A stretch of 37,893 nt of DNA, taken from positions 1 through 37,893 of IMG/VR virus record IMGVR_UViG_3300037847_001801, one strand, 5' to 3'. Below, piece after piece: positions 12,225 through 21,083 of this stretch. The stretch is from a virus. A model generated the notes under the pieces. That model ran no database searches. It was not told the DNA's origin and saw only the letters and a list, made by a program, of their open reading frames with translations. Each line of letters opens with the position of its first letter. Positions within the stretch are counted from its first letter, which is position 1. The translations under genes were made by a program, and so were the position numbers.

Positions 12225-12985
12225 AACTGCTCATCGACGCTGACTTCATTGTCTACAAGTGCTGTGCAGCAGCAGAGTCAGAGATTGACTTTGGTGACGA
12301 CGTGATTGTTGTTACCAGCAAGTTCAGCGAGGCATACGCTGCAGTTGAACGTGAGATCGTCAAGATTCGCTCAGAGTTCATGCTTGCAGAACCTGTGCTG
12401 TTCTTCAGTGACTCTAAAAATTTTAGGAAAAAAATTTACCCAGATTACAAGGGTCATCGAAATCGTAAGAAGCCTTGTGGCTATCGCCGCGTAATTTCTG
12501 AACTTTCGATGTTCTACAAGGTCATTCGCATCGCTGAGCTGGAGGCTGACGATGCTATGGGTATCTATGCAACCCACGAGCCTGGCAACATCATCGTCAG
12601 TCCTGACAAAGACATGCGCCAGATTCCTGGCAGGTTGTATGACCTGAAAGAAACTGTGGACATCACGCCAGAAGAGGGTATGAAATGGCATTTGATTCAG
12701 ACACTTGCTGGTGACCAGACCGATGGTTACAGCGGTGTGCCTGGTGTCGGTGTCAAACGTGCTATCGACTTGCTTGAAAAAGATGGTTACACATGGGACA
12801 CAGTTGTCAAAGCATTTAAGTCCAAAGAATTGGATGAAGACACTGCATTGATGAACGCACGTCTCGCAAAAATCCTACAGCATACTGATTATGATGCAGT
12901 CGAAAGAAGAGTCATACCATGGCTTCCCACCTCCACCAGTAGTCGAACTGACGATGGAGCAGCAGTTCAAACTGAGACAGCTTGA
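12221..12985 (+). CDS. 5'-3' exonuclease (T7 gp6-like, FEN family)
   Basis: Removes RNA primers and degrades host DNA to feed dNTP pools. 254 residues. FEN/PIN-type acidic motifs: LLIDADF (D6, D8) at the N-terminus, ELEADDAMG and SPDKDMRQIPG in the middle, GDQTDGYSGVPGVGVKRA as the helix-hairpin-helix with its metal-binding Asp residues. Length and order fit T7 gp6 (300 aa). Its 3' end is overlapped for 95 nt by the NblA-like ORF, so its last 30 or so residues (Ser/Thr-rich) may be under dual constraint. Confidence 0.93.
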   Translation: MKLLIDADFIVYKCCAAAESEIDFGDDVIVVTSKFSEAYAAVEREIVKIRSEFMLAEPVLFFSDSKNFRKKIYPDYKGHRNRKKPCGYRRVISELSMFYKVIRIAELEADDAMGIYATHEPGNIIVSPDKDMRQIPGRLYDLKETVDITPEEGMKWHLIQTLAGDQTDGYSGVPGVGVKRAIDLLEKDGYTWDTVVKAFKSKELDEDTALMNARLAKILQHTDYDAVERRVIPWLPTSTSSRTDDGAAVQTETA

Positions 12986-13133
12986 GGATCTCTTAGAAAC
13001 TGCAGACCGCAAAGACATCATCACTGTCTACCTTGCATTACAACGGCAGAACTTCTGCCTGTCCAACACTGTTACAAACCTGGTTAAGAAATGGCCCAAC
13101 AATCCCCTGCTCACTACACCCGAGGAGCAATAG
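12891..13133 (+). CDS. nblA: NblA-like phycobilisome degradation adaptor
   Basis: 80-residue ORF whose core ELTMEQQFKLRQLEDLLE is close to the NblA signature (LSLEQQFxLRxxE). The second helix, with LALQRQN...NLVKKW, matches the NblA pattern of Q-x-N and a final Lys-x-x-Trp. NblA is a small helical protein that hands phycobilisomes to Clp protease. Phage copies are known from Microcystis phage Ma-LMM01 and Planktothrix phage PaV-LD, and I recall one reported from an uncultured marine cyanophage. About 20 residues precede the core; starts at 12891, 12894 or 12954 are possible. It overlaps the exonuclease by 95 nt and DUF3310 by 43 nt. It implies a host with phycobilisomes. Confidence 0.72.
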   Translation: MMQSKEESYHGFPPPPVVELTMEQQFKLRQLEDLLETADRKDIITVYLALQRQNFCLSNTVTNLVKKWPNNPLLTTPEEQ

Positions 13134-19400: not shown

Positions 19401-19462
19401 CTCCAGCCGTACGTTCATCCTTCGGGACGCAGGCATCTTACTCATGGAACGGGGGGTAAGGT
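19401..19462 (+). ncRNA. Probable glutamine riboswitch (Downstream-peptide / glnA RNA type)
   Basis: Contains CGTTCATCCTTCGGGACG (19412-19429), the core hairpin of the glnA/Downstream-peptide RNA family (CGUUCA...UCC-loop-GGA-CG...). Outer pairing CCGT (19407-19410) with ACGG (19449-19452) closes a three-part junction, helped by CTCC (19401-19404) with GGGG (19453-19456). Family knowledge: these RNAs bind L-glutamine and occur in Synechococcus, Prochlorococcus and cyanophage DNA; the Downstream-peptide type precedes short ORFs. Here a 28-residue peptide with the YRGVAY motif follows, as expected. The last pairing strand merges with the ribosome-binding region, so control of translation is plausible. 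Direction of control unknown. Confidence 0.65.
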
Positions 19463-19476
19463 ATATGGAGTTTCTC

Positions 19477-19563
19477 ATGTCTCAAACTGCACAGAAAAAA
19501 GAAATCGTCCTGACCTATCGGGGCGTTGCCTACGTTGTCAAGCGCAATGTCGCATCAAAGTAA
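19477..19563 (+). CDS. DUF4278-like short peptide (28 aa) downstream of riboswitch
   Basis: 28 residues ending in EIVLTYRGVAYVVKRNVASK. LTYRGVAY matches DUF4278, a cyanobacterial short-protein motif. Start chosen at 19477 because GGAG (19467-19470) lies 6 nt upstream; ATGs at 19465 and 19444 are also in frame. It is the probable regulated ORF of the RNA at 19401-19462. Function unknown. Confidence 0.6.
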   Translation: MSQTAQKKEIVLTYRGVAYVVKRNVASK

Positions 19564-19648
19564 CAAAGCACAAGCGTCCGTAACTTATTACGGACCTGTC
19601 AATACAAAAAAACAGGGAGAAAAAAAGGCCAAGACTAAGAAGTCCTGA
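19547..19648 (+). CDS. Small basic protein (33 aa)
   Basis: 33 codons in another frame, overlapping the end of the DUF4278-like peptide by 17 nt. SVTYYGPVNTKKQGEKKAK and a Lys-rich end resemble other tiny basic proteins of this cluster. Weak ribosome-binding site. Coding is supported by composition and tight packing only. Confidence 0.4.
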   Translation: MSHQSNKAQASVTYYGPVNTKKQGEKKAKTKKS

Positions 19649-19715
19649 CCTTCTGCACCCTCACATAACATAACGAGCTTTCCACAACTGTAAAGCCCGA
19701 AGGACGGTTTAAGGA

Positions 19716-19830
19716 GTGGCTGACCGGAAAGCAGCCACGCCTGTGGGGTAGGCACCTCGGTGTAGGACCTGCCCTGCTTTGGCTTTTGGCCCGTACGCGG
19801 ATACCCATTAGCCGTCTAGACGGTGGGATA
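19716..19830 (+). ncRNA. Structured RNA element in the capsid gene leader
   Basis: No supported gene lies in 19649-19901. Positions 19728-19780 fold as a three-way junction with no unpaired base at the junction: AAAGCAG/CTGCTTT encloses CCAC-GCCT-GTGG and GGTAGG/CCTGCC, the latter carrying CAC-CTCG-GTG. A competing hairpin GTGGCT (19716-19721) with AGCCAC (19733-19738) would disrupt it. CCGTCTAGACGG (19812-19823) is a perfect 12-base palindrome, extended by CCCA/TGGG. It could be an RNase III-type processing site, a regulatory leader or a small RNA. An open + frame without ATG also crosses this stretch but has no supportable start. Confidence 0.55.
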
Positions 19831-19861
19831 GACCACAAAAAATTTGCTACAAAAATTTTCT

Positions 19862-19901: not shown

Positions 19902-21083
19902 ATGGCACATCAAAGTTCTGACCTGACTACTAGCCTTTCACGGCCTGGTAGTCTTAATGGCGCTGCAGATAGCCGCGCTCTTTATCTGAAGCTCTTCTCT
20001 GGTGAGATGTTCAAGGGCTTCGAGTACAACGCAATCGCCCGTGACATGGTGATGAAGCGTACTCTTTCCAACGGAAAGTCTATGCAGTTCATCTACACCG
20101 GTCGCACGACTGCTGAATATCACACCCCCGGAAATGCGATCCTCGGTAACAGCGACGGTGCACCTCCGGTGGCTGAGAAGACCATCACCGTTGACGATCT
20201 GCTGATCTCCAGTGCATTCGTTTACGACCTTGATGAGACTCTTTCTCACTACGATCTGCGTTCCGAAATCTCTAAGAAGATCGGATATGCACTCGCACAA
20301 AAATATGACCGTCTGATCTTCCGTGCAATTACTCGCGGTGCTCGGGCTAAGTCTCCTGTGCAAAAGTCCTCTTTCATCGAGCCCGGCGGAACCCAAATTC
20401 GTGTTGGTTCCTCTGGTACTGCTGCTTCTGATGCATACGATTCTGCAAAATTAGTGTCGGCATTCTATGACGCCGCAGCTGCACTTGACGAAAAGGGTGT
20501 TAGTTCCGAAGGCCGCGTGGGTGTACTTAACCCTCGCCAATACTATGAACTTATCCAAGCTGTTGGCAGCAACGGATTGGTGAATAGGGACGAGCAAGGC
20601 ACTGCGCTGCAAGGCGGCCAGGGCATCATCGAGATTGCAGGCATCAAGATCTACAAGTCGATGAACATCCCATTCTTCTCTCAGTACGGTACTAAGTATG
20701 GTACTGCTTCTGCCACCAACCCTGGTGTCGCTGATCCTGGCGAGACCGGTTCGTTCGTGGGCGAAGGTATGGAAGACGGACGCAACAGCGTGACCGGTAT
20801 CAACAACGATTACGGTCAAGCTTCCAACTTCGCTAACTCCTGTGGCCTCATCTTCCAACGCGAAGCTGCTGGTTGCGTGGAAGCGATTGGTCCTCAGGTG
20901 CAAGTCACCAGCGGTGACGTTTCTGTCATCTACCAGGGCGACGTGATCTTGGGTCGTCTCGCCATGGGCGCTGACTATCTGAACCCCGCCGCTGCTGTTG
21001 AGCTGTACGCTGGCACCGCTACTGCCCCCGCGCAGTTCGGTACTGTCCAGTCCGCTACCAACAACGCTGGTTACGGCGGCTGA
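19902..21083 (+). CDS. Major capsid protein (T7 gp10-like)
   Basis: 393 residues, HK97-fold shell protein (T7 gp10A is 345). Conserved segments: ALYLKLFSGEMFKGFEYN, SGKSMQFIYTGR-like KSMQFIYTGRTTAEYHTPG, DLLISSAFVYDLDETLSHYD, RVGVLNPRQYYELI. The end is Ala/Gly-rich. Position after scaffold and before tail tube A, with a strong terminator 22 nt after the stop, matches T7. Codons are dominated by C- and T-ending forms, consistent with high expression. No frameshifted gp10B form is evident. Confidence 0.96.
   Translation: MAHQSSDLTTSLSRPGSLNGAADSRALYLKLFSGEMFKGFEYNAIARDMVMKRTLSNGKSMQFIYTGRTTAEYHTPGNAILGNSDGAPPVAEKTITVDDLLISSAFVYDLDETLSHYDLRSEISKKIGYALAQKYDRLIFRAITRGARAKSPVQKSSFIEPGGTQIRVGSSGTAASDAYDSAKLVSAFYDAAAALDEKGVSSEGRVGVLNPRQYYELIQAVGSNGLVNRDEQGTALQGGQGIIEIAGIKIYKSMNIPFFSQYGTKYGTASATNPGVADPGETGSFVGEGMEDGRNSVTGINNDYGQASNFANSCGLIFQREAAGCVEAIGPQVQVTSGDVSVIYQGDVILGRLAMGADYLNPAAAVELYAGTATAPAQFGTVQSATNNAGYGG

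Follow-up and report, generated by a model that had tools for sequence, protein, structure and literature searches.

A probable glutamine-II riboswitch and YRG micropeptide cassette in a marine T7-like cyanophage and related viruses

A site that is probably a glutamine-II riboswitch controlling the translation of a 28-residue YRG micropeptide was identified, on sequence evidence, ahead of the capsid gene of a marine T7-like cyanophage. The window (the whole stretch of DNA that was analysed) is a virus record of 37,893 bases, and its closest annotated relative is the uncultured MedDCM-OCT-S28-C3. As the same combination of switch and peptide is found in many viruses of this kind, some phages are probably able to sense nitrogen status in an infected cell.

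The riboswitch and the micropeptide gene of the window

The features of this locus and its gene setting are as follows.

12945-13091, plus strand: NblA gene (phycobilisome degradation adaptor), PF04485, 29.3 bits
19409-19461, plus strand: glutamine-II (type 2, Downstream-peptide) riboswitch aptamer, RF01704, with homologues in isolates
19412-19416, plus strand: 5' strand of the ligand-binding pseudoknot, CGUUC (C1-C5 of 6QN3), paired with 19447-19451; sequence mapped on PMC6698751
19418-19427, plus strand: P1 hairpin UCC-UUCG-GGA (19418-19420/19425-19427, UUCG cap), with compensatory changes in all three counted pairs
19428-19431, plus strand: CGCA linker strand with G18 and C19; C19 pairs with G41 (19430:19452)
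19437-19443, plus strand: P2 5' strand CUUACUC, with compensatory changes in seven of seven P2 pairs
19447-19453, plus strand: 3' strand of the pseudoknot, GAACG (G36-G40 = 19447-19451), plus G41 and G42; mapped on 6QN3
19454-19460, plus strand: P2 3' strand GGGUAAG, identified by the P2 covariation
19467-19470, plus strand: Shine-Dalgarno sequence GGAG of the micropeptide, from the sequence; the ATG lies 6 nt downstream
19477-19563, plus strand: 28-residue micropeptide MSQTAQKKEIVLTYRGVAYVVKRNVASK, a single DUF4278-like YRGxxY unit (ATG 19477, stop 19561-19563, core YRGVAY)
19547-19648, plus strand: 33-residue ORF, PHROG 23119 (unknown function), E 1.9e-8, overlapping the end of the micropeptide gene
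19902-21083, plus strand: major capsid protein gene, PHROG 267 (major head)

The RNA was matched over the full glutamine-II model (RF01704, positions 1-60) at 19409-19461 on the plus strand with 47 bits against a gathering threshold of 33 (E 1.7e-8; cmscan, Rfam 15), and this was the sole match above gathering in the whole window. A sequence-only reading of this DNA had placed the RNA in a combined glnA/Downstream-peptide family and had named covariance models for both; the Downstream-peptide part of that assignment was upheld, and the glnA model (RF01739, class I) was rejected at 14.5 bits against 35 (E 3.1). The aptamer is therefore of class II and not of class I. Mapping onto the crystal structure 6QN3 showed that all of its ligand-contacting and pseudoknot bases are present in the window RNA. 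Glutamine contacts have been reported for C1, G18, C39 and G40 (PMC6698751), which correspond to 19412 C, 19429 G, 19450 C and 19451 G, respectively. The P1-PK-P2 architecture is likewise present, with the pseudoknot CGUUC/GAACG and the pair C19:G41, so the closing CCGT/ACGG pairing proposed earlier was not quite right and is replaced by CGUUC 19412-19416/GAACG 19447-19451 plus C19430-G19452.

Six bases separate the end of P2 from the Shine-Dalgarno sequence, and the small ORF that follows gives the window RNA the 5'-UTR setting of RF01704. The ORF was found where the sequence-only reading had placed a 28-residue YRGVAY frame, and YRGVAY is an instance of the YRGxxY core common to host glutamine-II peptides. 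The peptide had also been called a DUF4278 peptide; the YRG core of that claim stands, and full family membership does not, as the match to Pfam DUF4278 (PF14105) is sub-threshold (E 0.01, 16.6 bits against 25.3) and limited to the last 14 profile positions (44-57 of 57). A match to PHROG 5049 (unknown function) was also obtained (E 2.9e-4). The frame encodes one YRG unit and then a short basic tail, where it ends, and contains no inactivating part of the IF17 type. The peptide may act as a DUF4278 unit without being filed as a full member of the family.

The location of riboswitch and ORF inside the late structural operon, ahead of the capsid gene, was confirmed by the PHROG 267 assignment and by the same location in cultured phages, and the NblA gene that had been noticed elsewhere in the window was recovered with PF04485. 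The NblA gene suggests a phycobilisome-bearing Synechococcus host. The 33-residue ORF is probably a gene separate from the micropeptide. No promoter was detected by a sigma-70 scan directly upstream of the window aptamer. ARAGORN, applied to the window locus and its relatives, found no tRNA or tmRNA at the window locus or in most relatives and only a tRNA-Gly in NATL1A-7; a tRNA/tmRNA link as in the methylophage Melnitz was rejected on this basis.

Conservation and occurrence of the cassette

In an alignment of 71 aptamer sequences, 97.9% of the cells were paired, compared with at most 63% in slid-structure controls, and changes on both sides of a pair were found in 132 cells against 31 in shuffles. 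Compensatory changes occurred in all ten pairs of P1 and P2 (three and seven, respectively). The invariance of CGUUCA, CGCA and UGGAACGGG was not used as evidence, because it is partly imposed by the search pattern. SS120-1, which Rfam detected independently of the pattern, has a compensated pair in its pseudoknot (CGUUU/AAACG).

At 124 of the 125 sites that are followed by 120 nt or more of sequence, a small YRGxxY ORF begins within 75 nt of the aptamer. The lone exception is S-RIP2, which also encodes YRG, in a longer frame. No such ORF arose in 5000 dinucleotide shuffles or in the upstream control stretches. The start codons lie mostly 21-28 nt past G42, alternative in-frame starts being set aside. 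Among 85 unique cores the residues Y, R, G and Y are invariant and their codons vary (pN/pS 0.49), a mark of constraint on the micropeptide at the amino-acid level; since these cores were chosen by the motif, the unbiased count is 124 of 125. The pairing of riboswitch and YRG ORF read from the window was thus borne out by covariation, by the count of micropeptides and by the shared location in cultured phages.

A blastn search from the window found the element just 5' of the capsid gene in P-GSP1, P-SSP7 and S-RIP1, in agreement with Rfam, and MedDCM-S28-C3 also has the RNA just ahead of its capsid gene. The riboswitch, paired with the peptide, scored above cut-off in 14 of the 22 T7-like cyanophage records examined, including P-SSP7, P-GSP1 and S-TIP37. 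Among the same 22 records, S-B28, DSL-LC07, S-CBP2, Syn5, P60, S-CBP42 and S-SRP01 have no riboswitch. S-SBP1 (L246, 2660-2718) is a natural switch-less variant, in which the aptamer has decayed with loss of the 5' pseudoknot strand and the YRG ORF is intact; as the peptide is kept beside a decayed aptamer, the switch is dispensable in this phage.

A pattern scan of IMG/VR detected the RNA in at least 120 contigs, and well over 100 IMG/VR contigs have the switch-peptide pair; such scans favour the bases of their own pattern. Among the matches listed, the RNA lies nearly always downstream of psbA or scaffold genes and upstream of a T7-like capsid gene, and a capsid gene was detected in 96 of 124 loci (four isolate loci included), most of the others being incomplete contigs. 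Most contigs encode a phage peptide of 13-39 residues that comprises just one YRG unit. A second pattern, which excluded the phage-typical U34, returned more T7-like members and other phage types among the matches listed. These include a siphovirus-like group (L343 and relatives, with portal PF06381 and RNR), a T4-like contig (L267) that carries genes for heme oxygenase and PhoH, and a phage with PolA (L269). Marker genes alone are the basis for the labels siphovirus-like and T4-like. In one T7-like contig (L016, 2455-2947), the cassette lies on the opposite strand among replication genes, beside a cyanophage outer-membrane-like gene (PF24653).

Loci of Prochlorococcus and Synechococcaceae were reached by scanning bacterial genomes and by a covariance model from the phage set. 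The peptides encoded behind these host aptamers contain two or three YRG/YRR repeats, of which some are degenerate. Three host aptamers (L129, L184 and L127; Prochlorococcus and Synechococcaceae) precede an unrelated 56-residue protein, MNxLxQIREKIxRAxRLYEAQ.... Some longer phage peptides have an N-terminal part (MNPLALIKQQLEKAARLREAQMASLVYRGVAY) that looks like this 56-residue host-type protein fused to a YRG unit.

Proposed mechanism and alternative explanations

The aptamer is predicted to bind L-glutamine, and binding would let P2 and the pseudoknot form and so favour initiation at ATG 19477. By analogy with a Prochlorococcus type 2 member in which glutamine activates expression (PMC6316151), the element would be an ON switch, with the micropeptide made when glutamine is high. 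Control is presumably translational, because no intrinsic terminator lies between the aptamer and the ORF; terminator-based transcriptional control was rejected, the plus strand having no terminator-like site there. In ViennaRNA ensembles computed for both states of the aptamer, its folding alters the accessibility of the ribosome site little (median shift +0.007; 23 up and 12 down of 117), and in the window itself accessibility is the same in both states. The ribosome site is mostly paired with the downstream coding sequence in these simulations. As a test of simple sequestering of the Shine-Dalgarno sequence, the ensembles show no more than this small shift and are neutral on the switch.

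With less assurance, the peptide may copy a single unit of the small multi-YRG (DUF4278) proteins that glutamine induces in the host, and under plentiful glutamine the phage might thereby add a host-like nitrogen-status peptide and bias nitrogen regulation in the host while virions are made. Of the whole proposed mechanism, what the peptide does to the host is the weakest part. In IF17 the N-terminal part is covered by DUF4278 and has been described as dispensable for the inactivation of glutamine synthetase (GS) (PMC6316151); direct inhibition of GS by the peptide is therefore doubtful and is disfavoured as its default function.

A second structured RNA, distinct from the riboswitch, was identified in the capsid leader.

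About 19746-19836, plus strand: conserved capsid-leader RNA, a CACC-GGAC hairpin and a UUUGGC...GAUACC...GGGAUAGACCAC module, from the alignment

This RNA lies directly 5' of the capsid gene in 100 IMG/VR loci and was found in at least 17 phage records, three of which (S-B28, DSL-LC07 and S-SRP01) lack the riboswitch (alignment A2; L001-L004, L246-L256, L263 and L264). In 83 sequences, 97.4% of cells were paired and nine of 14 pairs showed compensatory changes. It matched no Rfam family at gathering, nor any on the plus strand at E 0.1. The upstream hairpin is of the CACCUCAGAGUCGGAC type or of a T-loop (UUCGANU-like) type, and in NATL1A-7 (L252, 2719-2789) a genuine tRNA-Gly(UCC) takes the place of the T-loop or CACC-GGAC hairpin seen elsewhere. 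As a guess from this replacement, the capsid mRNA might undergo tRNA-like processing. A sub-threshold match to PhotoRC-I (29.2 bits against 45, E 6e-6) was obtained at 19693-19742 of the window on the minus strand, antisense to the late transcript. The region contains the sense string ACGGUUUAAGGA, which Syn5 (L258) also has, no more than 300 bases 5' of the capsid gene, and the strand assignment of PhotoRC-I may deserve a second look.

Both structured elements lie no more than 0.5 kb from the capsid start in most T7-like contigs, and in P-SSP7, P-SSP2, S-TIP37 and S-RIP1 the last codons of the peptide overlap the stem below the T-loop hairpin. These observations would suit a switch that mainly controls the capsid and late genes: acting as a leader, translation of the micropeptide would open or close the structured RNA and so couple capsid output to glutamine. 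This is nevertheless an unlikely explanation. In NATL2A-133, 9515-10a, P-SSP10 and NATL1A-7, intervening genes and a distance of more than 1.1 kb separate the aptamer from the capsid gene downstream, and no close capsid gene follows the cassette in L016, L343, L267 and L269. The leader RNA is moreover present in the three phages named above that lack the riboswitch, and the peptide stop and the leader hairpin of the window are about 180 nt apart, with another ORF in between. That the cassette is also found far from capsid genes points to regulation of peptide output and not of capsid output, and the selected unit looks like the switch-peptide cassette rather than capsid control.

Little credence is given to the view that the cassette is a piece of host DNA that was acquired and is carried along with psbA while serving no function itself in the phage. 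The cassette is usually found directly behind psbA, the copy in S-SBP1 is decayed, and Syn5, P60, S-CBP2 and S-CBP42 have none; against this stand the covariation of P1 and P2, the invariant YRGxxY and the recurrence of the cassette in unrelated phages, and without an adjoining psbA in the window, MedDCM-S28-C3 and SS120-1. A riboswitch of the same fold with another ligand, or an OFF switch, is similarly improbable. The sequence alone gives no direction and the fold simulation is neutral, but every base that contacts glutamine or its metal in 6QN3 is kept (an agreement that is partly pattern-imposed and is shared by the isolates found by Rfam and BLAST), and the Prochlorococcus member was reported to be ON (PMC6316151).

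Beyond the preferred reading, in which a glutamine-II riboswitch governs synthesis of the micropeptide at the level of translation, a wider one is tentatively put forward as possible and somewhat doubtful: a glutamine-gated micropeptide cassette may have spread among unrelated cyanophages (T7-like, T4-like and siphovirus-like) as a regulated host-mimic, so that at high host glutamine the phage would produce a one-unit form of the glutamine-induced YRG proteins of its host and redirect nitrogen control in the infected cell. As the cassette is conserved in cultured T7-like cyanophages (P-SSP7, S-TIP37), sensing of a host metabolite, followed by a response with a peptide of fewer than 40 residues, may occur in abundant marine phages. 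The role of host nitrogen status in infection becomes testable in existing phage-host pairs, T7-like cyanophages having reportedly been engineered (PMC8776855), and the phage peptide represents a minimal form of a host protein family of unknown function.

Comparison with known glutamine riboswitches

In earlier accounts glutamine riboswitches were regarded as confined to cyanobacteria, and type 2 apparently to marine picocyanobacteria (PMC6316151); the occurrence of glutamine-II in phages contrasts with this view. A search confined to open-access papers found no report of a glutamine-II switch in T7-like cyanophages.

The window element resembles the glutamine-II (type 2) riboswitches of marine picocyanobacteria (RF01704, 6QN3) in its complete aptamer with the same pseudoknot and ligand-contact bases, in the small YRG ORF directly downstream and in a similar spacing from aptamer to ATG. 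Unlike them, it is phage-encoded and lies inside a late structural operon, and the peptides of T7-like phages have one YRGxxY unit, whereas those of the hosts have two or three. The OM43 methylophage Melnitz (PMC9004378) is another marine phage with a glutamine aptamer; its aptamer, however, is glnA-like (class I) and occurs with a tmRNA gene and without a YRG micropeptide. Type 2 glutamine switches have been tied to DUF4278 proteins (PMC6316151). IF17 of Synechocystis (gifB, type 1 riboswitch) and PMM1846 of Prochlorococcus MED4 share with the phage locus a glutamine switch ahead of a DUF4278-containing small protein, and differ from the single YRG unit of the phage, IF17 through an additional inactivating part and PMM1846 through its size of about 7 kDa.
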